64,000 nt of DNA, taken from Thermodesulfobacteriota bacterium (GTDB taxonomy: Bacteria > Desulfobacterota > GWC2-55-46). The stretch lies in the NCBI GenBank assembly GCA_030583865.1, contig CP129479.1:2070819-2134818 (forward strand), read 5' to 3'. A program made the position numbers and the translations under genes. The notes beneath the pieces were generated by a model. That model worked only from the letters and a program-made list of their open reading frames with translations. It was not told the DNA's origin and did not search any database. Shown piece after piece: positions 24,571 through 37,665 of the stretch (position 1 is the first letter of the stretch; each line of letters begins with the position of its first letter).

Positions 24571-27500
24571 ATGCTCGGCAGGATAATAGAGATTTCCGTA
24601 AGGAACAGGCTCCTGGTCCTCCTCGCGACCGCGTTCCTCATCGGCTGGGGCGTGTACGCGGTCTCGAAGACCCCGGTTGACGCCATACCCGACCTTTCCG
24701 ACGTGCAGGTAATCATATATACGGAACACCCGGGCCAGGCCCCGCAGGTCGTGGAGGACCAGGTCACGTACCCGCTCGCCACCGCGATGATGTCGGTACC
24801 AAAGGCAAAGACCGTCCGGGGCTATTCCTTCTTCGGCGTCTCGTTCGTGTACGTCATCTTCGAGGACGGCACGGACATATACTGGGCCAGGAGCCGCGTC
24901 CTCGAATACCTGAACTTCGCCTCGGGCAAGCTCCCGAAGGGCGTTACGCCTTCCCTCGGCCCCGACGCCACGGGCGTCGGATGGGTCTACGAGTATACAA
25001 TCGAGGGCAAGGGGTACAGCCTCGCGGAGCTCCGCTCCATACAGGACTGGTACATAAGATACCAGCTCACCTCTGTGCCGGGAGTTGCCGAGGTGGCCTC
25101 CATCGGCGGGTTCGTAAAGCAATACCAGGTCAACGTCGACCCCAACAGGCTCCTTACATACGGCGTCTCCATCGGCGAAGTCGCGAAAGCCATAGAGATG
25201 AGCAACCGCGACGTGGGCGGCAGGGTCATCGAGATGGCCGAGCGCGAGTACATGGTGAGGGGCCTCGGCTATATCGAGGGCGTAGCGGACATAGAGGACA
25301 TCGTACTGAAGACGGACAGGACCGGCACGCCGGTAAGGATACGGGACATTGCGAGGGTCGAGCTCGGGCCCGACGAGAGGCGGGGCCTTGCGGAGCTTAA
25401 CGGCAAGGGCGAGGCCGTGGGCGGCATAGTCGTCATGCGCTTCGGCGAGAACGCCCTTGATGTCATACAAGGGGTAAAGGACAAGCTCAGGGAGCTTGAG
25501 GCGGGCCTCCCGCCGGGGGTCGAGATAAGGACGGCCTACGACAGGAGCGGCCTCATTCACCGGGCAATAGACACGCTGAAGGAAAAGATAGTCGAGGAGC
25601 TAGTCCTCGTCTCGCTCGTCTGCGTCGTCTTCCTCCTCCATTTCAGGTCGTCGCTCGTCGCGATAATAACGCTACCCATAGCGGTCCTCGCCTCCTTCAT
25701 CGTCATGAGGCTCATGGGGATAAACGCCAACATCATGAGCCTCGGCGGCATCGCCATAGCCATAGGCGCGATGATAGACGGCGCGATAGTAATGATCGAG
25801 AACGCCCACAAGCACATCGAGAGGGGGGAAGGCAAGGGCAAAGACCACTGGGGCATGATAACCGAGGCCGCAAAGGAGGTGGGGCCCGCCCTCTTCTTCT
25901 CGCTCCTCATAATCACCGTCTCTTTCATGCCGGTCTTCACGCTGGAGGCCGAGGAAGGCAGGCTCTTCAAGCCCCTTGCCTTCACCAAGACCTTCGCGAT
26001 GGCCGCGGCCGCGTTCCTTACCATAACGCTCGTCCCGGTCCTCATGGGCATATTCATAAAGGGGCGGATAAGGCCCGAGGAAAAAAACCCCATCACGAAA
26101 TTCCTCGTCTGGCTCTACAGGCCCGCGGTCCTGAAAACACTGAAATACAGGAAGACGGCAATCTTTATCGCGCTCCTTGCCCTTGCCTCGGCCATCTATC
26201 CCATGAAGAGGATAGGGAGCGAGTTCATGCCTCCGCTGAACGAAGGTACCCTCTTCTACATGCCCGTTACGCTTCCGGGCGTATCCGTGACAAAGGCGCA
26301 GGAGATGCTCCAGACGCAGAACAGGATAATAAAGGGCTTTCCGGAGGTCGAGAGCGTCTTCGGCAAGTCAGGGCGCGCCATGACCGCAACCGACCCGGCC
26401 CCGTTCGAGATGTTCGAGACGATAATCAACCTCAAGCCCGAAAGGGAATGGCGTCCCGGCATGACGATGGAAAGGCTCATCGAGGAGCTTGACGAGGCCC
26501 TCCGGATGCCGGGCGTGACAAACGCCTGGACAATGCCCATAAAGGCCAGGCTCGACATGCTCTCCACGGGCATAAGGACTCCGGTGGGTGTGAAGGTCTT
26601 CGGGAATGACCTTTCCGAGCTCGAAAGGCTCTCCCTCGAGATAGAGGCTGCGCTCAAAGAGGTGCCCGGCACGGCGAGCGCCTTCGCCGAAAGGGCGCTA
26701 GGTGGATACTACCTCGACATCCGCATAAAGCGCGGCGAGGCGGCGAGGTACGGGCTCAGGGTGGAGGACATACAGGAGGTCATAACCTCGGCCGTGGGGG
26801 GGGAGAACGTGACCACCACGGTCGAGGGGCTTGAACGGTATCCCGTGAACGTGAGGTACAAGCGGGAGTTGAGGGACGACATCGTAAAGATAGGACGCGT
26901 GCTCGTCCCCGCGGAAGGAGGGCAGCACGTGCCGCTATCGCAGGTGGCGCTCATAGAGGTCAGGAAGGGCCCGGCCGCGGTAAGGACCGAGAACGCGCTT
27001 CTCACCAACTGGATATTCGTGGACGTGAGGGGAAGGGACATCGGCGGCTTCGTGCAGGACGCGAAGGCGGCCATATCGGAGAACATAGAATTCCCTCCGG
27101 GCTATTACGCCGTGTGGACCGGCCAATACGAGTACATGGAGAGGGCCTACGGAAAGCTCAAGGTCATAGTGCCGCTTACGCTCGGCATAATTTTCCTCCT
27201 CCTTTATCTCAATTTCAAGTCCGTAACCGAGTGCCTGATAATACTCCTTGCCGTCCCTTTCTCGCTCATCGGGGCCGCATGGACGCTCTACCTCCTCGAC
27301 TACAACCTGAGCATAGGGGTGGCGGTGGGGCTTCTGGCGCTGGCGGGCCTCGACGCCGAGACCGGCATCATCATGCTCATGTACCTGAAGCACGCCTACG
27401 AGAAACGGGCCTCCGAAGGGAGGATGAATACGCGCGAGGACCTCTACGAGGCGATTCGGGAGGGCGCGGTCATGAGGGTCAGGCCCAAGGTGATGACCGC

Positions 27501-27711
27501 GTCGGCCACGATAGCCGGACTCCTGCCCATAATGTGGAGCGCCGGCACCGGCGCCGACGTGATGAAAAGGATAGCCGCGCCCATGGTCGGCGGCATGGTG
27601 ACGGCCGTCCTCCTCGAATTGCTCGTGCTCCCGGCCATCTACGCCCTCTGGAAAGGGAGGAGGCTTGGCGGTGAAGTGATCCCGCCCGGGACCGGGAAGC
27701 CGCCCTCCTAA
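24571..27711 (+). CDS. cusA: CusA-type heavy-metal efflux RND transporter
   Basis: Proton-driven inner-membrane pump of the HME-RND family. The 1046 residues have the normal twelve-helix layout with two large periplasmic loops. The proton-relay residues are present: Asp in AIGAMIDGAIVMIEN, Glu in AGLDAETGIIMLMY and Lys in VRPKVMTASATIAG. Of the Cu/Ag-binding Met cluster, the Met in PFEMFET and the Met in RLDMLSTGI are conserved, while the RYGM position of E. coli CusA reads RYGL; by memory of CusA this may be the third Met, which would alter specificity. Monovalent copper/silver is still the likeliest substrate. Family B repeat B1 follows directly, its flanking duplication including the stop codon. 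Confidence 0.93.
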   Translation: MLGRIIEISVRNRLLVLLATAFLIGWGVYAVSKTPVDAIPDLSDVQVIIYTEHPGQAPQVVEDQVTYPLATAMMSVPKAKTVRGYSFFGVSFVYVIFEDGTDIYWARSRVLEYLNFASGKLPKGVTPSLGPDATGVGWVYEYTIEGKGYSLAELRSIQDWYIRYQLTSVPGVAEVASIGGFVKQYQVNVDPNRLLTYGVSIGEVAKAIEMSNRDVGGRVIEMAEREYMVRGLGYIEGVADIEDIVLKTDRTGTPVRIRDIARVELGPDERRGLAELNGKGEAVGGIVVMRFGENALDVIQGVKDKLRELEAGLPPGVEIRTAYDRSGLIHRAIDTLKEKIVEELVLVSLVCVVFLLHFRSSLVAIITLPIAVLASFIVMRLMGINANIMSLGGIAIAIGAMIDGAIVMIENAHKHIERGEGKGKDHWGMITEAAKEVGPALFFSLLIITVSFMPVFTLEAEEGRLFKPLAFTKTFAMAAAAFLTITLVPVLMGIFIKGRIRPEEKNPITKFLVWLYRPAVLKTLKYRKTAIFIALLALASAIYPMKRIGSEFMPPLNEGTLFYMPVTLPGVSVTKAQEMLQTQNRIIKGFPEVESVFGKSGRAMTATDPAPFEMFETIINLKPEREWRPGMTMERLIEELDEALRMPGVTNAWTMPIKARLDMLSTGIRTPVGVKVFGNDLSELERLSLEIEAALKEVPGTASAFAERALGGYYLDIRIKRGEAARYGLRVEDIQEVITSAVGGENVTTTVEGLERYPVNVRYKRELRDDIVKIGRVLVPAEGGQHVPLSQVALIEVRKGPAAVRTENALLTNWIFVDVRGRDIGGFVQDAKAAISENIEFPPGYYAVWTGQYEYMERAYGKLKVIVPLTLGIIFLLLYLNFKSVTECLIILLAVPFSLIGAAWTLYLLDYNLSIGVAVGLLALAGLDAETGIIMLMYLKHAYEKRASEGRMNTREDLYEAIREGAVMRVRPKVMTASATIAGLLPIMWSAGTGADVMKRIAAPMVGGMVTAVLLELLVLPAIYALWKGRRLGGEVIPPGTGKPPS

Positions 27712-27712
27712 C

Positions 27713-27863
27713 AACTTGCTGAAAAACTCCATTTTTATTCAGGCTGCTCAAAAAGCTCCAGCTGCGAGACGTCGAGGAGCGAGGAATGAGGCGTACTTTT
27801 CGTGTACGCCTTCGTAGCCAGCGACGAAGACAACGAAGCAGATGGACTTTTTCAGCAGCCTGC
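27713..27863 (+). repeat. Family B terminal-inverted-repeat element, copy B1
   Basis: About 150 bp. Left end AACTTGCTGAAAAACTCC and right end GGACTTTTTCAGCAGCCTGC are imperfect inverted repeats. The centre holds the hairpin GGCGTAC / GTACGCC. A 5-bp CTAAC occurs on both sides (27708-27712 and 27863-27867), like a target-site duplication; the left one includes the cusA stop codon. No coding capacity. Confidence 0.88.
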
Positions 27864-27922
27864 TAACGCGCCATGAAAGTTCTGCTATAGTCGAGACAGG
27901 AAATCCATGCGGAGGGATGAGC

Positions 27923-28249
27923 ATGAAAAAGACCTGGTTTCCGCTTCTTGCCTCGCTTCTGCTCCTTTCAGCGCATTCCGCCTCGGCTGGACCGGGCGGG
28001 CGCGCGATACCCGTGCAATTGCCTCCACAGGAATTCCGGCAGCCTGCCGATCCCTTCCTGGCAATGGAAAGGGAGCAGCTCATGCAGGAGACACTGATGG
28101 CCCTCCGTGAGCTCATAGACCTGATGGAGCAGGTCGGGGAGATGCCGCCCGATGCGAGGGACAGGCTTGCGATGCTCTCCGAGAGGATGGACTTCCTCAT
28201 AACTCGACAGCAGGACCTTGCCATGCGGCAGAGGATGGGGATGCGGTAA
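27923..28249 (+). CDS. Small secreted protein of unknown function, rich in Met and Gln
   Basis: Not recognised. 108 residues: a signal peptide (MKKTWFPLLASLLLLSAHSASA) and a mature chain with PVQLPPQEFRQPADPF, then two amphipathic helices (EREQLMQETLMALRELIDLM and RDRLAMLSERMDFLITRQQ) ending MRQRMGMR. The mature part has about ten Met and no Cys or His, a composition seen in some periplasmic Cu(I)/Ag(I)-binding proteins. It follows cusA, separated by repeat B1, which hints at a metal-related role. Start ATG at 27923 chosen for its 7-base spacing from GGAGGG; ATG at 27917 abuts that site. Confidence 0.7.
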   Translation: MKKTWFPLLASLLLLSAHSASAGPGGRAIPVQLPPQEFRQPADPFLAMEREQLMQETLMALRELIDLMEQVGEMPPDARDRLAMLSERMDFLITRQQDLAMRQRMGMR

Positions 28250-28268
28250 GCGCGCGACAGGCTCGGCC

Positions 28269-28291
28269 TCTTCTGAAGGTATGTTCTTTTT
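28269..28291 (+). repeat. 23-bp direct repeat flanking B2, left copy
   Basis: TCTTCTGAAGGTATGTTCTTTTT matches 28457-28479 at 22 of 23 positions; the pair brackets repeat B2. Confidence 0.75.
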
Positions 28292-28453
28292 AGCAGCTTG
28301 CTGAAAAACTCCGTTTTATCCAGGCTGCTCAAAAAGCTCCAGATGCGAGGCCCCCTTTGGAGTAGGGGAGCGAGGAATGAGGCGTACTTTTCGTGTACGC
28401 CTTCGTAGCCAGCGACGTAGCCTTCGAAGCAGATGGACTTTTTCTGCAGCCTG
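28292..28453 (+). repeat. Family B element, copy B2
   Basis: Left end AGCAGCTTGCTGAAAAACTCC, central GGCGTAC/GTACGCC hairpin, right end GGACTTTTTCTGCAGCCTGA. Closest to B3 (both carry a GCGAGGCCCC insertion absent from B1). No short target duplication is seen; instead a 23-bp direct repeat flanks it. Together with the direct repeats it fills the 286-bp gap between the two secreted-protein genes. Confidence 0.85.
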
Positions 28454-28456
28454 AGG

Positions 28457-28479
28457 TCTTCTGAAGGTATGCTCTTTTT
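28457..28479 (+). repeat. 23-bp direct repeat flanking B2, right copy
   Basis: TCTTCTGAAGGTATGCTCTTTTT, one base different from 28269-28291. Confidence 0.75.
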
Positions 28480-28535
28480 CGTGCATACTTTAATGATAGT
28501 GCATCCGACTTATCCGAAAAGGAGGAAAACCTGTC

Positions 28536-29303
28536 ATGAAAAAGACGACCGCACCTCTAGCCGCCGTCTTTTCCGTCTTTCTAACCGCAGGCGTCGCGTC
28601 CGCCCAGGCCGGGGCAGCCCCGGCGCCCGGAGCGCCTTCCGGTGCGCCGTCCCTGGGGCCGCCTCAGGCAACGACGCCCTTGCCGCCTCCGACAACCGCG
28701 ACGCCGCCTCCGGTTACCGCGACCCCTCCGCCTGCTACGACGATACCTCCTCCCACGACAACCGTCCCTCCCCCGACTGCACAGCTTCCGCAGACGACAA
28801 CTCCGCTGCCTCCGGCCACTACCGAGATCCCTCAGCCGACGACACCGCTTCCGCCAGCGACAACCGAACTTCCCCAGACCACGACACCGCTTCCGCCTGC
28901 CACTACCGAGCTTCCCCCGGCTACAACGCCGCTTCCGCCTCCGGTTGCAGGCGGGATATCTCCGTTTGAAACTCCGCCCCAGCCGTCCCTGGGGCCGCCC
29001 AGGGCGCTTAGCGAAACTCCCCCCGTGCTTCCTGATGTGCCGTCCCCGGCAGTCGACGTCCCTCCTGAGACGGCCCTCCTTTTTCCCCCGTTCCCTTCGC
29101 CTGGCGAGCTCGAGCCGGGGGTAACCCCGGGGATAACCATTGTCCAGCCGCCGCCGGTCGCCCAGGCCGTCCCGGGCATTACGGAAGAGCCCGGCTCCCT
29201 TTCGCCCGGCAGCGACTCCCTGGGCCGCACAGAAGGCCGGGTCCTCCGTGATTTCGAAAGCGAGACCCCGGTCACGATACTGGGGGAGCAGGGACGACCA
29301 TAA
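28536..29303 (+). CDS. Pro/Thr-rich secreted repeat protein of unknown function
   Basis: Not recognised. 255 residues: signal peptide (to about ASAQA, residue 25), then residues 45-155 built from variants of TPLPPATTELP (an 8-11-residue period of Thr-Pro-Pro), then a Pro-rich segment and a less repetitive C-terminus with GITEEPGSLSPGSD and FESETPVTILGEQG. No membrane anchor, LPXTG or globular domain is visible; it is probably an extended periplasmic or surface spacer. A clean AAGGAGGAAAA ribosome site precedes ATG at 28536. The rho-independent terminator at 29367-29399 ends the unit. Codon use resembles the neighbours. Confidence 0.75.
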   Translation: MKKTTAPLAAVFSVFLTAGVASAQAGAAPAPGAPSGAPSLGPPQATTPLPPPTTATPPPVTATPPPATTIPPPTTTVPPPTAQLPQTTTPLPPATTEIPQPTTPLPPATTELPQTTTPLPPATTELPPATTPLPPPVAGGISPFETPPQPSLGPPRALSETPPVLPDVPSPAVDVPPETALLFPPFPSPGELEPGVTPGITIVQPPPVAQAVPGITEEPGSLSPGSDSLGRTEGRVLRDFESETPVTILGEQGRP

Positions 29304-29366
29304 TTAAGGAGCCAGGCGGCGAAAAGGATTGAATGGCTCCGCATCCCTGTGTTACAATCCCCTCCG

Positions 29367-29399
29367 AAGTGCAGGGCCGCGTAGCGGCCCTGCACTTTT
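29367..29399 (+). terminator. Rho-independent terminator after the Pro/Thr-rich gene
   Basis: AAGTGCAGGGCCGC / GCGGCCCTGCACTT, 14-bp perfect stem with GTA loop, followed by TTTT; nearly symmetric and so possibly bidirectional. The rest of the 393-bp gap before the atp genes holds a candidate promoter and nothing else recognisable. Confidence 0.8.
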
Positions 29400-29544
29400 C
29401 ATGAGGACCCTCAGCCAGCCGTTCCGACCTCCTGCATGTCCCCTTACCATGGCCGGGTTCTTGATAACCGCGCACGCGTTAAGCGTACCGGCGCACCGGT
29501 GTTTTTATAACGCGCGGACGGCTCAAGCCCGCAAATTAAATCGC

Positions 29545-29572
29545 TTGACAACGAACTTTTGTATATGATAGC
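29545..29572 (+). promoter_or_regulatory. Candidate promoter of the atp operon
   Basis: TTGACA (29545-29550), 16-bp spacer, GATAGC (29567-29572), about 125 bases before the first atp start. The -35 is consensus but the -10 is weak; a better TATGAT at 29564 has too short a spacer. Confidence 0.35.
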
Positions 29573-29696
29573 AATACCCTGTTTTAGTTTTGAAAAATCG
29601 GCTTTCACACACCCCGGACAATCTGAGGCCCCCATGCGGCCCGCGGTTCAGGGCGCTTACGGAAGAAGTGTAAAAAAAACCAAAGGCTCTCTATAG

Positions 29697-30656
29697 ATGA
29701 TATCACTCGACCAGACCCTCCTTTTCCAGATAATCGGCTTTTTCGTGCTGCTTATCATCCTCAACAGGCTCCTTTACAGGCCCGTCCAGCGTATATTGAA
29801 GGAACGGGACGAGCGCATAGCCGGGAGCCTCAAGAAGGCCGCCGGGACCGAGAAAGAAGTCGCCGACGGGCTCCTCGGATATGAGAAGAGGCTCAAGGAA
29901 GCGGCCATTAAGGGGCACGAGGAGAGGGGCAGGCTCAGGCAGGAAGGCATCGACAGGGAAAAGGCAATAATCGAGGCCGCCCGGGCCGAGGCCGCTTCCG
30001 AGCTCGCCAAGATAAGAAAGGAACTCGATTCGAGCAGGCAGGGCGCGCTTGCCGGATTGAAGACCGAGGCAAGGGGCCTTGCCAGGGAGATAGCCGGTAA
30101 AGTCCTCGACAGGAGCGTTGCCGGGCTTATCGCGATATTCCTCCTTGTGCCGTCCTTTGCCTTCGCAGCCGCCGGAGGCGACCACGGAAACGGCATGATA
30201 TGGAAGGTCGCCAACTTCATCGTGCTCGCAATCGGCGTCTACCTGGTATGGACGAAGGTCGTAAACAAGCTCCTGGACAAGAGGAGCGCCGAGATAAAGA
30301 CCGCCATCGAAGAGGCCCAGGCAGCCAAGGAAGAGGCCGAGAGGAAGGCCGCGGAGTACAGGGCCAAGCTGGGCCTCCTTGACGCGAGGATAGCCGAGAT
30401 ACATAACGAGCTACGGGCGGAGGGCGAATCCGAGAGGGAAAGGATAATAGCCGAGGCGGGGAAATCAGCCGAGAGGCTCAAGGAGCAGGCAAAGGCCGCC
30501 GCCGAGCAGGAAATAAAGAAGGCGAAGATCGAGATACGCGAAGAGGCCGCAAGGGCCGCGGTCGAGCTGGCCGAGGAGATACTCAAGAAGGAGTTCACCC
30601 CTGCGGACCAGGACAGGCTCGTTAAAGGATACCTAAACAACCTGAGGATCAACTGA
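29697..30656 (+). CDS. atpF: Fused ATP synthase b' and b subunits (AtpX-AtpF)
   Basis: Peripheral-stalk subunits of F0F1 ATP synthase, normally two proteins. One uninterrupted 319-residue frame holds both. Residues 1-140 are b': a membrane helix (about 8-26, LLFQIIGFFVLLIILNRLLY) and a long charged coiled coil ending EIAGKVLDRS. Residues 142-158 are hydrophobic (VAGLIAIFLLVPSFAFA) and look like the leader that begins b in deltaproteobacteria, with an AFA-AAG signal-peptidase-type site. Residues 168-319 are b: a helix (MIWKVANFIVLAIGVYLVW) and a second coiled coil. No stop, ribosome site or alternative start lies between the halves. atpH follows with a TGATG overlap. An assembly error is possible but would have to remove a stop while keeping the frame. 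Confidence 0.88.
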   Translation: MISLDQTLLFQIIGFFVLLIILNRLLYRPVQRILKERDERIAGSLKKAAGTEKEVADGLLGYEKRLKEAAIKGHEERGRLRQEGIDREKAIIEAARAEAASELAKIRKELDSSRQGALAGLKTEARGLAREIAGKVLDRSVAGLIAIFLLVPSFAFAAAGGDHGNGMIWKVANFIVLAIGVYLVWTKVVNKLLDKRSAEIKTAIEEAQAAKEEAERKAAEYRAKLGLLDARIAEIHNELRAEGESERERIIAEAGKSAERLKEQAKAAAEQEIKKAKIEIREEAARAAVELAEEILKKEFTPADQDRLVKGYLNNLRIN

Positions 30657-31201
30657 TGAAGAGTTCCGCGTCCAAGAGGTTCGCGAAGGCCCTCATAGAG
30701 GTCGGAAGGGAAAACAACACCTGGGACCAGTACGGGAAGGAGCTCCGCTCGGTGCTCGCGGTATTCAGCGGCAACCCCGGGCTCGAAAAGGCGCTCCTTA
30801 ACCCCATGTACAAGCTGGAGGACCGCCTGTCCCTGATGGACAACGTGGCCGCCTCCGCCGGGCTCTCGTCCCATGTCGCCAAATTCCTCGGGATACTCGT
30901 CCGCACCAGGAACTTGAGGTTCCTGGACGAGATAACAGCCGCGTACTCGGCCTACGAGGACGGGCTCGCGGGCAGGATCAGGGCCTCGGTGGACTCCCCG
31001 ACCGAGCTTCCCCTGGCCCTCGTCGATGAGATAAGGAAAAAACTCTCATCCCTTACCGGCAAGGACGTGGTACTTACATGCAATCATAACCCTCTCCTCC
31101 TGGGCGGGCTTGTCCTCAAGATCGGGAACACCATCCTGGACGGGAGCTTGAAGACCCAGCTCGAACTCATGAAGGAAAAAATACTCGAAGGGGTGGTTTA
31201 G
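30656..31201 (+). CDS. atpH: ATP synthase subunit delta
   Basis: Central piece of the stator, joining F1 to the b stalk. The 181 residues have the N-terminal helical bundle (KRFAKALIEVGRENN) and the C-terminal segment LTGKDVVLTCNHNPLLLGGLVLKIGNTILDG, both characteristic. Its ATG overlaps the stop of the b'-b gene, and atpA follows after 3 bases. Confidence 0.95.
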   Translation: MKSSASKRFAKALIEVGRENNTWDQYGKELRSVLAVFSGNPGLEKALLNPMYKLEDRLSLMDNVAASAGLSSHVAKFLGILVRTRNLRFLDEITAAYSAYEDGLAGRIRASVDSPTELPLALVDEIRKKLSSLTGKDVVLTCNHNPLLLGGLVLKIGNTILDGSLKTQLELMKEKILEGVV

Positions 31202-31204
31202 AAG

Positions 31205-32719
31205 ATGATCAAGGTAGAGGAAATAAGCCAGCTCATAAAGACCCAGATAAAGGGATTTGAGAAGGAAATCGACATACAGGAAGTCGGCACCGTCATATCT
31301 GTCGGCGACGGGATAGCGAGGATATACGGCCTCGAGAAGGCAATGGCCGGGGAACTCCTCGAATTCCAGGGCGGCCTCCAGGGCATGGTCCTGAACCTCG
31401 AGGAGGACAACGTCGGAGCGGCGCTCCTCGGAAGCGACCAGACGGTAAAGGAAGGCTCGACGGTCAAGAGGACCGGAAGGATAGTCGAGGTCCCGGTCGG
31501 CAAGGGCCTCATGGGCAGGGTCGTAAACGCCCTCGGGCAGCCCATAGACAACAAGGGCCCCTTGGAGGCGGCAGAGAGGCGGAGGGTCGAGATAAAGGCC
31601 CCCGGCATAGTCGCGAGGAAATCCGTCAAGGAGCCGCTCCAGACCGGAATCAAGGCCATAGACGCCATGATACCCATCGGCAGGGGCCAGAGGGAGCTCA
31701 TAATCGGCGACCGCCAGACCGGAAAGACCGCGGTCGCGATCGACACCATCATAAACCAGAAAGGGCAGAACGTCTTCTGCATATACGTCGCCATCGGCCA
31801 GAAGCAGTCGACGGTCGCCCAGATATCCGAGAAATTGAAGCAGTTCGGCGCGATGGACTACACCGTTATCGTCGCCGCCACTGCAAGCTCCCCGGCTCCC
31901 CTGCAGTTCCTGGCCCCGTACGCAGGCTGCGCCATAGGCGAGTACTTCAGGGACAACGGGATGCACGCCCTCATAATCTACGACGACCTCTCGAAGCACG
32001 CGGTCGCCTACAGGCAGCTTTCGCTCCTGCTCCGCAGGCCCCCGGGCCGAGAGGCATACCCCGGAGACGTCTTCTACCTCCACTCAAGGCTCCTCGAGAG
32101 GGCCGCGAAGCTCTCTGACACCCTCGGAGGCGGGTCGCTTACGGCGCTCCCGATAATCGAGACGCAGGCTGGCGACGTCTCGGCCTACATCCCGACGAAC
32201 GTCATATCCATTACCGACGGGCAGATATTCCTCGAGACCGACCTCTTCTACTCCGGCATAAGGCCCGCCATCAACGTCGGGCTTTCGGTCTCCCGCGTCG
32301 GCGGAAGCGCCCAGATAAAGGCCATGAAGTCGGTCGCCGGCACATTGAGGCTCGAGCTAGCGCAGTACAGGGAGCTCGCGGCGTTCGCCCAGTTCGGAAG
32401 CGACCTCGACCCGGCGACACAGAAGCAGCTCAACAGGGGCTCCAAGCTCGTCGAGATACTTAAGCAGGGGCAGTACAAGCCCCTTCCCGTCGAAAAGCAG
32501 GTGCTCGTCATATACGCCGCCACAAACGGCTATGTTGACGCCTACCCCAACTCGGCCCTCAAGAGGTACGAGGAAGAGCTCATAGCCTTCATGGAGTCCA
32601 GGCACCCCGAGATAATAGAGGAGATACGCACCAAGAAGGCCATAGACAACGACCTTAAGCCCAGGCTCAATAAGGCGCTTGACGACTTGAAGGGCCTGTT
32701 CGTTGCCGAGGGCAAATAG
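31205..32719 (+). CDS. atpA: ATP synthase subunit alpha
   Basis: Non-catalytic nucleotide-binding subunit of F1, three per complex. The 504 residues have the beta-barrel domain, P-loop [11 protein letters not shown] (about 170-180), [20 protein letters not shown] and the C-terminal helical domain. The alpha signature [13 protein letters not shown] is intact. Unlike most atp operons, about 165 bp separate it from atpG, occupied by repeat A3. Confidence 0.98.
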
Positions 32720-32723
32720 CACA

Positions 32724-32863
32724 AGGCAATACCTGAAAATTAGAGATTTTTCCCGCAATCAAGGAAGGGCCGGGAATAAAAAGCGGAGCATATATGTAAT
32801 ATGTGAGCATTTTTATTCACGGCCTGACGCAGAGTCCGGGGAAAAGATCAATTTTCAAGAAAA
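32724..32863 (+). repeat. Family A repeat, copy A3, between atpA and atpG
   Basis: Begins five bases after the atpA stop with AGGCAATACCTGAAAATT and ends with AATTTTCAAGAAAAC just before the atpG ribosome-binding region. The right outer arm has decayed; inner arms GGCCGGGAATAAAAA and TTTTTATTCACGGCC have one mismatch. Confidence 0.85.
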
Positions 32864-32884
32864 CTACCGGGGACGACCACATAG

Positions 32885-33751
32885 ATGCCCAGCCTCAAGG
32901 ACATAAAAAGACGGATAAAGTCGGTCAAGAACACGCGGCAGATAACCAAGGCCATGAAGATGGTCTCCGCCGCGAAGCTCAAGAAGGCCCAGGACGAGAT
33001 AGTCGCGGCCCGGCCCTATGCCGAGAAGATGCTCGAGCTCATAGGCTCGCTCGCATCCAAGGCCTCGCCCGACAGCCATCCCCTTCTTGAAAAAAGGGAC
33101 GTAAAGAACGTCACCCTTGCGCTCTTCACCTCGGACAGGGGACTTTGCGGAAGCTTCAACTCGCAGCTCCTCCGGACCGCGGAAAGGTTCCTCCGCGAGC
33201 GCGGCTCGTCCGGCGCAAGCCTTTATCTCGTCGGCAAGCGCGGCGGCGAGTACTTCAAGAGGCGCAGCATCAAGGTCCTCAACGCACGCCCTGTCGGGAG
33301 CGGCAGGCCGGCTTACGGCACCGCCGTGGAGATAGCCAACGACCTCGTGGGCTCGTATTTGAAGGGCGAGACCGACGAGGTCCACATGATATTCAGCGAA
33401 TTCAAATCCGCCCTCACCCAGAAGCCGCTTACGATAAAGCTTCTGCCCGTCTCGGCCCCCGAGGACGAGGAAAATAAGGAAGGCGAGGGCAAGGGCGAGT
33501 ATATCTACGAGCCCGGCGAAGAGGCGGTGCTTGCGAGCCTCCTTCCGAAGTATGTTGAGGTGCAGGCCTTCAGGGCCCTTCTGGAAACCTCGGCCAGCGA
33601 GCACGGGGCGAGGATGACGGCAATGGACTCGGCCTCGAAGAACGCGGGCCAGATGATAAGCGGCCTTACGCTCGTGTATAACAGGCTCCGCCAGGCCGCC
33701 ATCACCAAGGAGCTCATGGAGATAATCGGAGGCGCGGAGGCGCTTAAGTAA
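32885..33751 (+). CDS. atpG: ATP synthase subunit gamma
   Basis: Rotor shaft of F1, one copy per complex. The 288 residues start MPSLKDIKRRIKSVKNTRQ and end ITKELMEIIGGAEALK, the two long coiled-coil helices; the Rossmann-like middle has LFTSDRGLCGSFN. A short extra acidic loop (EDEENKEGEGKGEYIYE, about 198-214) is typical of some bacterial gammas. It is flanked on both sides by family A repeats (A3, A4), each in a gap much longer than the overlaps elsewhere in the operon. Confidence 0.97.
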   Translation: MPSLKDIKRRIKSVKNTRQITKAMKMVSAAKLKKAQDEIVAARPYAEKMLELIGSLASKASPDSHPLLEKRDVKNVTLALFTSDRGLCGSFNSQLLRTAERFLRERGSSGASLYLVGKRGGEYFKRRSIKVLNARPVGSGRPAYGTAVEIANDLVGSYLKGETDEVHMIFSEFKSALTQKPLTIKLLPVSAPEDEENKEGEGKGEYIYEPGEEAVLASLLPKYVEVQAFRALLETSASEHGARMTAMDSASKNAGQMISGLTLVYNRLRQAAITKELMEIIGGAEALK

Positions 33752-33837
33752 CCCGCGCGTCGGGTCACTGATTTCAACCCCGGAAACGGGCAACAGGGGA
33801 AAGGGCCGAAAGGCCGTTCCAAAACTTTCAAGCAACC

Positions 33838-35484
<1,647 letters not shown>

Positions 35485-35499
35485 CCCAAGGGCAGGACA

Positions 35500-35922
35500 A
35501 TGGCGGAAAATACTACAACCTTTTTGCTCGAAATAGTAACACCCCAGAGGAAGCTCCTCTCAATGGAGGTCGAGGAAACGACCGCCCCCGGACAGGAAGG
35601 CGAGTTCGGGGTGCTCGCGGGGCATACCCCGTTCCTCACGGTATTGAAGCCCGGCGAGGTGGCCTTCAAGAAAGGCGCTGAATCAGGCGTGCTCGCCGTG
35701 GGGAGGGGCTACGCGGAGGTGCTGCCCGGGAAGACCACCATACTGGTCGACACTGCTGCAAGGGAATCCGAGATCGACGTTGAGGCCGCCAGGAAGGAAG
35801 CCCAAGAGGCTTCCGCGGTCCTCGGCTCCCTGAGCCAGGATGACGCGGCCTATGCGCAGGCCCAGGACAGGCTCGAGTACGCGCAAGCCAGGCTCAGGGT
35901 AAAGGAAAAGGGCAGGGCTTAG
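35500..35922 (+). CDS. atpC: ATP synthase subunit epsilon
   Basis: Regulatory small F1 subunit. The 140 residues have the beta-sandwich (LEIVTPQRKLLSMEVEETTAPGQEGEFGVLAGHTPFLT) and two C-terminal helices ending RLEYAQARLRVKEKGRA, the inhibitory hairpin. Last gene of the operon, followed by a terminator. No atpB or atpE is present in the window; a separate F0 locus is usual in deltaproteobacteria. Confidence 0.96.
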   Translation: MAENTTTFLLEIVTPQRKLLSMEVEETTAPGQEGEFGVLAGHTPFLTVLKPGEVAFKKGAESGVLAVGRGYAEVLPGKTTILVDTAARESEIDVEAARKEAQEASAVLGSLSQDDAAYAQAQDRLEYAQARLRVKEKGRA

Positions 35923-35950
35923 GATACGGAAATACAGGATTAAAAAGGAA

Positions 35951-35975
35951 GGCGGGCCAAGAGCCCGCCTTTTTT
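35951..35975 (+). terminator. Rho-independent terminator of the atp operon
   Basis: GGCGGGC / GCCCGCC, 7-bp stem, 5-base loop, then TTTTTT. AAAAAGG on the other side gives a weaker signal for the convergent minus-strand gene. Confidence 0.88.
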
Positions 35976-36023
35976 GTTGGAAGCAACAACTACTTATGAC
36001 AGGGAAGACACTGCTTTTCCCGC

Positions 36024-36608
36024 CTACTTCTTCGGCACGATCGTAAGCTTCGCCTTCCCGTCCTTCACATAGACCCTGACGTCCACGTTGCTCGTCTTGT
36101 ACTGCTCCTCCACCTTCTTCTTGTACTGCTCTATAGTCTTTTTGAGGCTCTCGACGGTTATGCCCTCCACCGGCTCGCGGCACTCCTTTCTCGCCTCTAT
36201 GTACCTCTTGTAGATGTCCTCGAAGCCGCCGTCCGACGGCGCGGGGCCTTTTGCGCCGGCCTTTTGCGCCTGCACAGGCTGACTGGACGGGGCAGGCCGT
36301 CCCGCCTCGGCAGCCACCTGCCCCGGCGCGCCCTCGGCCTTCCTGACGTAAGTCCCCTCCTCTATTGCGCGGAGCACCCTGTCCCAGTGCTGCCTGTATG
36401 AATTGTACCTGGCGACGATCGAATTGAGCTTGAACTTTGTCGAGGTATTGTTTATGGTCCTGCCGTTCAGGGAGAGTATCGTTTTTTCGATGTCGTTCCT
36501 GAGCTTTGACGGCTCGCGCTTCAATACCCTGGCAAAGTACTGCTCGTACTCGACCTTGAGCCGGATGATCTTCCCGTCCAGTATCTCTATGTCCTCTCTA
36601 TCGCCCAT
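36024..36608 (-). CDS. Hypothetical protein resembling the MXAN_5187 C-terminal domain family
   Basis: Cytoplasmic, 194 residues, no signal peptide. N-terminal helical part (IEILDGKIIRLKVEYEQYFARVLKREP, then RYNSYRQHWDRVLRAIEEG), a Pro/Ala/Gln-rich linker (about 95-128) and a C-terminal domain with YIEARKECREPVEGITVESL and DVRVYVKDGKAKLTIVPKK. The C-terminal pattern resembles a family described from Myxococcus; function unknown. It is convergent to the atp operon and stands alone. Confidence 0.7.
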   Translation of the reverse strand: MGDREDIEILDGKIIRLKVEYEQYFARVLKREPSKLRNDIEKTILSLNGRTINNTSTKFKLNSIVARYNSYRQHWDRVLRAIEEGTYVRKAEGAPGQVAAEAGRPAPSSQPVQAQKAGAKGPAPSDGGFEDIYKRYIEARKECREPVEGITVESLKKTIEQYKKKVEEQYKTSNVDVRVYVKDGKAKLTIVPKK

Positions 36609-36678
36609 ATGCCTCTGAGTCTAACAGATTACCTGATGCAAGGCCGGGAAGTATGTGATTTGCGTCCGGGCCTTTTCT

Positions 36679-37665
36679 TCAGTCCTTGAGCCTTATTGCC
36701 TGTATATCGCCGCCCGAGCCGATTCCTATCGAGACCGGCAGGGAGACGTAATGCCTCCTCTCCCTTGTCCCGTCCTCGTGGATTGCGATGGCGATGGTAA
36801 AGACATCGCCTTCGGAGACTGCCATGTCATATTTGCCTGCCCGGCCCATAGGCTTCTTGAAAACCGCCGTGTACGCGCCCTCCGACCAGTATCCCGAGCC
36901 TTCGAAAGCAGGCCTCTCTTCCCATGCCTTTTCATCATAGACCCATCCGTCGGCGGCCCTGGCGAGCCCCTTCCCCAGCTCTACCGATTTCAGGTCTATG
37001 AGCCCGGCGGCCTTGCTGTCCTCCGCATCGGCTTTCCTTTTGTCCCAGGACGATTTCGCGTGGACGGAATACAGGCTCACCTCGTCCTTGCCCCTGTAGG
37101 CCGGATGCTCGCCTATCTCCTTTTTGGAAGGGGCGTGCGGCATGGTTGAAAGGTCGTTATGGCATGTTATGAAGCAGCCGCTCGCCCTGAATAACGGGTC
37201 CGACTTATTCGCCTGCACTGATATCCTGTCAGGGGTTTTTGCCGACTTGTCCCATCCGGCGCCGGCTGAGCTCCACCTGAACCTTAGGTAAAGGTGCTCG
37301 CCGTCGTACGCGGCCTGGACCTCCGCCGAGATGAAGCCCTTCCTGCCGGCGCCCGGCTCAGGCTCGAAGGGCTTCAAAGACCTCTTCATCTTGAGCGAGC
37401 CCGAGGCTATCTCGTCGGCCTTTATGTCGAGCGTCCCGTCCTTTGCGAGATGGCAGTTCCTGCAGTCCTTCCTGCCGGACTTTATCATCCTTGCGCCCAG
37501 CCTGTGGTCCTCGCTCACGAGGAATTCCCAGGAGACGACACCCGGGTAGAAGAGGGCGATCTTGGCGGGCTTGACCCCGCGCCAGTCAACGTCCGCGGCC
37601 TCCGACGGGGCGGCAAGCACGGCGCCGGAAAGCAACAGCGCCAAAAGGATGACCCTGGCACGCAT
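36679..37665 (-). CDS. Secreted cytochrome-like protein with ethylbenzene-dehydrogenase-type heme-binding domain
   Basis: Periplasmic protein, 328 residues from MRARVILLALLLSGA (signal peptide, cleavage near PSEAA). A CRNCH heme-c motif lies at residues 68-72 and a CFITCH sequence (C-x3-C-H) at 164-169. The region QAAYDGEHLYLRFRW and the C-terminal half (RAGKYDMAVSEGDVFTIAIAIHEDG) resemble the heme-binding domain of ethylbenzene/DMSO dehydrogenase gamma-type subunits. It lies 16 bases downstream of the heme-bearing chemoreceptor, so the two are almost certainly co-transcribed. Start ATG at 37665 has GGAAAGG upstream. Exact redox partner unknown. Confidence 0.78.
   Translation of the reverse strand: MRARVILLALLLSGAVLAAPSEAADVDWRGVKPAKIALFYPGVVSWEFLVSEDHRLGARMIKSGRKDCRNCHLAKDGTLDIKADEIASGSLKMKRSLKPFEPEPGAGRKGFISAEVQAAYDGEHLYLRFRWSSAGAGWDKSAKTPDRISVQANKSDPLFRASGCFITCHNDLSTMPHAPSKKEIGEHPAYRGKDEVSLYSVHAKSSWDKRKADAEDSKAAGLIDLKSVELGKGLARAADGWVYDEKAWEERPAFEGSGYWSEGAYTAVFKKPMGRAGKYDMAVSEGDVFTIAIAIHEDGTRERRHYVSLPVSIGIGSGGDIQAIRLKD

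Follow-up and report, generated by a model that had tools for sequence, protein, structure and literature searches.

One reading frame for ATP synthase stalk subunits b' and b in an order of Desulfobacterota: a probable polyprotein joined by a former signal peptide

Translation normally sets the ratio of the ATP synthase subunits, each of which is made as a protein of its own. In the stretch of 64,000 nucleotides analyzed here (contig CP129479.1 of a Thermodesulfobacteriota bacterium; the window), the two peripheral-stalk subunits b' and b run together in one frame, which raises the question of how a working stator can be obtained from such a chain. The subunits are ordinary; their joining is out of the ordinary. 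The comparisons described below suggest that the frame probably encodes a stator polyprotein in which b' and b are joined via the former signal peptide of b, which would be cut by signal peptidase I after Ala157, with the b' C-terminus released thereafter.

The preliminary description had read the locus as a single b'-b frame without a stop, ribosome site or start between the halves, and this reading holds. The frame is continuous over 319 codons (29697-30656, +) and stop-free from b' to b; Pfam finds ATP-synt_B (PF00430) twice, at residues 7-137 and in the second half (E 3e-31), and both halves match the NCBIfam b and b' models. The b' part ends in ...IAGKVLDRS, the counterpart of ...IAEKILxRKVA* in split b' proteins. 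The whole genome, assembled as one contig of 2.75 Mb, lacks a second b or b' gene, and within the 29697-30656 frame no start codon preceded by a Shine-Dalgarno sequence was found upstream of the leader. A doubled PF00430 domain, an atp operon with delta and the position of sole b/b' source in the genome mark the product as a peripheral-stalk protein. The features are collected in Table 1.

Table 1. Parts of the fused frame and the atp genes that follow it (window coordinates).
Feature	Coordinates	Strand	Remarks
Fused b'-b gene (atpX-atpF), 319 aa	29697..30656	+	Single open frame; two ATP-synt_B stretches; fused in 43 loci of the order
b' part, residues 1-140	29697..30116	+	N-terminal membrane helix ~6-27, then long amphipathic helix
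Internal leader, residues 141-157, VAGLIAIFLLVPSFAFA	30117..30167	+	K135 and R139 of the b' tail supply the n-region charges
Signal peptidase I-like -3..-1 site A-F-A, residues 155-157	30159..30167	+	Predicted cut after Ala157
Predicted mature b, residues 158-319	30168..30653	+	Short G/H-rich periplasmic N-terminus; membrane helix ~169-188; long helix to the C-terminus
atpH (delta/OSCP)	30656..31201	+	PF00213, 4.2e-36
atpA (alpha)	31205..32719	+	Open frame; identity from translation, not from a family model
atpG (gamma)	32885..33751	+	Open frame; identity from translation
atpD (beta)	34015..35484	+	Start set at the ATG of MSEVQRTA; identity from translation
atpC (epsilon)	35500..35922	+	PF02823, PF00401

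The fusion stop and the atpH ATG overlap (TGATG, 30654-30658), and delta is followed by alpha, gamma, beta and epsilon. The gene for the F0 a subunit lies ~1.5 Mb away from the operon (G000:C1:590020-590595, -), a split atp arrangement. There is no Rfam match in 27000-37000. The gaps between atpA and atpG (32722-32855) and between atpG and atpD (33837-33975) each hold a repeat of ~139 bp that contains an imperfect inverted repeat of 30 nt. The genome has at least 40 copies of this ~139-bp repeat, for which Rfam gives no match; the copies lie mostly on the minus strand over the first contig half and on the plus strand over the second, and since the strand switches between the halves, their orientation seems to follow the replichore. 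An unrelated intergenic repeat of ~158 bp (27709-27866 and 28291-28453) occurs in about 40 or more copies, and about 38 of 40, counted by eye, follow the same strand preference in each half of the genome; these are possibly mobile elements inserted relative to the direction of replication. Upstream of the fusion, 28536-29303 (+) encodes a protein of 255 aa that begins like a signal peptide, contains degenerate Thr/Pro repeats (TTPLPPATTELPQ...) and has no Pfam match.

Is the fusion real, and how far does it extend? Among 59 relatives searched for the fused locus, an uninterrupted b'-b frame occurs in 42 genomes of seven families, the genome of the window among them, at 43 loci, that is, at every readable locus of the order; no genome of the order has split b'/b genes at a readable locus. 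Six order genomes gave no match: the contig starts within atpA in G012 and G020, G046 has no more than the end of atpA, at the start of a contig, and no F-type atpA above the cut-off was found in G027, G043 and G044. The preliminary description had asked whether close relatives share the fusion and had named separate atpX and atpF in all of them as the contrary outcome; the opposite is seen. The fused proteins share 41-97% identity, and as the same fusion recurs in 42 genomes and many independent assemblies, it is not a sequencing error. An assembly artefact, such as a missed stop or indel, is ruled out by these genomes and by purifying selection across the joint, and no points in its favor were found. 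Two fused loci (L039 and L040) lie on separate contigs of one bin (G034), in which either the operon is duplicated or genomes are mixed.

Outside the order the two genes are separate in the genomes compared. In three families of the same class (f8, f10 and f11), the genes for b' and b lie side by side or overlap, and a stop separates the two frames; in a phylum sample of 297 genomes all full-length matches listed outside the order carry a stop, the list comprising the best matches, so that a very distant fusion could escape it. A contig scan, which rested on one conserved segment of the C-terminal part of b, returned only relatives. Named records with the same genes include the metagenome-assembled 'Deltaproteobacteria bacterium' GWA2_55_10, GWB2_55_19 and UBA5799, presumably members of the GTDB class GWC2-55-46 of Desulfobacterota. 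A description of this class has been published (PMC13386864).

The split relatives indicate how the fusion could have arisen. Their b' proteins, of 141-147 residues, end in RKVA*, RKAA* or RRVA*, and b starts within a few bases of the b' stop or overlaps it (ATGA in L051). The b N-terminus is a Sec-type leader (MK...AxA) with a signal-peptidase-like site, e.g., SPVLA/AEEGG, SQAFA/AEEGG or TVFA/AAEGG (the slash marks the site), and b carries similar leaders in more distant members of the phylum. The fused proteins keep a complete b' body and the conserved b' tail, with A133, K135, L137 and R139 invariant or nearly so; relative to the split state, the b' stop and the n-region of b are lost, and the basic n-region now comes from the b' tail. 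As far as these alignments reach, the ancestral state is shown to be split genes with an N-terminal leader on b. The b-domain tree fits a single fusion origin: one change is needed in 86% of bootstrap trees, whereas the best tree requires two, at poorly supported forks. In the split loci L041 and L045-L050 the n-region of the b signal peptide holds simple repeats (CAAGTTT or AAATTTC units), so the start of the leader may be hypervariable in these families.

The joint itself, P-S-F-A-F-A / A-A-G-G at the end of a leader at residues 141-157, resembles a signal peptide with an AxA end, just as the preliminary description had claimed, and the resemblance extends across the order. In the 43 fused proteins, the residue at -1 is Ala in 41 and Gly in two, while 42 have a small or aliphatic residue (A, V, S, G, C or L) at -3; the -3 residue is poorer in three sequences, being Leu in two and, as aligned, Glu in one (L033), which has a good site, A-L-A, two residues further on. 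The -3/-1 site is the top AxA-like column of the entire alignment (0.93 vs 0.79 for the next), and A157 is invariant in A2. The site lies 17-23 residues from Arg139, the leader carries no further charge in 34 of 43 proteins, and the mean hydropathy of its best 12 residues is 2.1-3.5. A basic n-region, a hydrophobic h-region and small -3/-1 residues (42 of 43 as aligned, by a loose rule) are all features of signal peptidase I substrates. Purifying selection acts on the leader, which has a pN/pS of 0.29 across 35 close pairs as compared to 0.19-0.24 in the subunit bodies and 0.36 in the linker after the leader. A mere membrane helix would have no need for particular residues at -3 and -1, and the conserved AxA at the leader end therefore favors a cut.

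Structural considerations bear on the fate of the chain mainly through geometry. The whole-chain model is weak (pTM 0.44; pLDDT <50 for residues 134-175); it makes residues 6-128 one helix, with good confidence over 41-120, and, weak as it is at the joint, bears on neither parallel versus antiparallel pairing nor a cut versus an uncut chain. A fold search with the model against the PDB gave nothing significant, the closest entries being insignificant coiled coils, and in a PDB sequence search the hits were, in essence, b subunits of the usual kind plus the b-delta of mycobacteria. Of the b' helix (6-128), ~22 residues would lie in the membrane and ~101 in the cytoplasm; because the latter, at 1.5 Å each, make ~150 Å by an ideal-geometry estimate, the b' C-terminus belongs far above the membrane.

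The preliminary description had left two outcomes side by side, a chain that stays fused and a chain cut by signal peptidase I. In an uncut chain, the leader would serve as a third membrane helix, with a lasting covalent link from b' to b; the topology is consistent with this (b' helix N-out, leader in-to-out, b helix out-to-in), and natural fusions of stalk subunits are tolerated elsewhere (b-delta; PMC5709465). The difficulty is that b' is about as long as in split relatives (142 aa), yet its end would be held at the membrane: a leader embedded there pins the b' C-terminus at the surface, ~150 Å from its proper place. Even unfolded and stretched in the cytoplasm, the 41 residues from 128 to 169 would reach at most ~143 Å, again under ideal geometry, and fall short of 150 Å plus the membrane. 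The AxA at the leader end would be conserved without evident purpose. On this model an uncut chain would hardly fit the canonical stator, and we regard it as very unlikely. Thus only the cutting alternative of the preliminary description is favored, by the site in 43 of 43 proteins (shifted by two residues in one), by the N-terminal leader of b in the split sisters and by the ~150 Å geometry, which together disfavor the third helix.

Processing would be unneeded if an internal translation start, e.g., at Met167 (GM-WK), yielded b alone. The window (M167) and many relatives do have an in-frame ATG just ahead of the b membrane helix, and a leaderless b would resemble that of E. coli, but some members lack this ATG, and in-frame starts there follow a Shine-Dalgarno-like string of 4 or 5 bases in only 5 of 43 loci. 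An internal start would also leave the conserved leader and its AxA site unexplained, and split relatives retain the leader on b, leaving this route an even slimmer chance than the uncut chain. A closer competitor, still rather improbable, is a sub-variant of the favored polyprotein reading with the signal peptidase I cut alone: the leader would remain as a hydrophobic C-terminal tail of b', to be pulled out of the membrane as the coiled coil forms. The leader, which spans 17-23 residues between the b' tail and the site, is short and a marginal membrane anchor; however, its best-12 mean hydropathy of 2.1-3.5 would make extraction costly, and a hydrophobic tail left exposed near F1 is unlikely to be without effect.

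In the favored reading, a polyprotein cut at the joint with b' released afterwards, b' would first be anchored by its N-terminal helix in an N-out/C-in orientation. Sec/YidC would then thread the internal leader from inside to outside, the basic b' end acting as the n-region, and signal peptidase I would cut on the periplasmic side after Ala157 to give b an N-terminus of AAGGDHG.... The b membrane helix would re-enter, and its long helix would pair with b' in parallel. Finally, the b' C-terminus would be freed by an RseP-type intramembrane cut, or by trimming or extraction by another protease, FtsH or a different one. This second step, a point missed in the preliminary description, is probably needed because signal peptidase alone leaves the leader on the b' C-terminus, which must reach the upper part of F1. 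The two cuts, the sequence in which they occur and the 1:1 output are our inference.

The genome has a LepB gene and encodes an RseP-like M50 protease with a HELGH motif and two PDZ matches. In E. coli, RseP clears remnant signal peptides; it prefers N-in/C-out substrates, which are generally single-spanning, and requires a prior periplasmic cut (PMC10470546). After signal peptidase I, the leader would be an N-in/C-out C-terminal segment without a periplasmic part, much like the remnants that RseP removes; this orientation is the one predicted from position and charges, and the prior cut is likewise a prediction. The b' stub, however, also has its own N-terminal membrane helix and is thus not single-spanning, so RseP is a candidate only. 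That assembly of ATP synthase in this order obligatorily takes two cuts, by signal peptidase I and then by an S2P/RseP-type protease that frees the b' C-terminus, is a tentative extension, possible but short of probable.

The nearest working analogue of the proposed path is the fbcH polyprotein (cytochrome b/cytochrome c1) of Bradyrhizobium japonicum and its relatives, which signal peptidase cuts at an internal signal peptide. The b'-b locus is likewise one frame for two membrane subunits of one respiratory complex, separate in relatives and joined by a signal peptide; the complex is a different one, and the cytochrome b end lies at the membrane, so fbcH needs no second step, whereas the b' end must go far from the membrane. 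At the core-E1 joint of hepatitis C virus, signal peptidase and then an intramembrane protease, signal peptide peptidase, release an internal signal peptide. The predicted logic is the same, a far-side cut followed by an intramembrane cut that frees the upstream protein, but that system is viral and uses eukaryotic enzymes, while here an S2P/RseP-type enzyme is the candidate.

The mycobacterial b-delta protein stays fused, is not known to have an internal signal peptide and coexists with a separate b'. It too is a peripheral-stalk gene fusion in an atp operon, but its partners differ: here OSCP is outside the b chain, and delta is an overlapping gene of its own. The b-delta fusion is described for mycobacteria and Gordonia as a delta/b 'Rosetta Stone' (PMC5709465), and its PDB entry (8j0s_d) is named 'Multifunctional fusion protein'. 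Chloroplast ATP synthase subunit I (b) is N-terminally truncated on maturation (PMC3709506) and thus also loses an N-terminal segment, but it has a separate gene with the leader at the N-terminus. Separate b' (AtpX/AtpG-like) and b (AtpF) subunits share the domains and the position ahead of delta, and among the split genes of the phylum b likewise has its leader; in the fusion, one frame serves both and the leader is internal. A search of the accessible literature returned b-delta fusions and no description of a b'-b fusion.

A stator polyprotein found across an order suggests that proteolysis can set the ratio and pairing of subunits. ATP synthase assembly would be tied to signal peptidase and perhaps to intramembrane proteolysis, and blocking one enzyme would block assembly; if two cuts are indeed obligatory, an intramembrane protease would be an essential ATP synthase assembly factor. 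The fusion is also a clean natural test of whether a covalent tie is tolerated in the peripheral stalk. When such proteins are labeled 'subunit B', b' is miscounted as absent. In these uncultivated deltaproteobacteria the cut probably frees both stalk proteins, and the main energy machine of the cell would thus depend on proteolysis.
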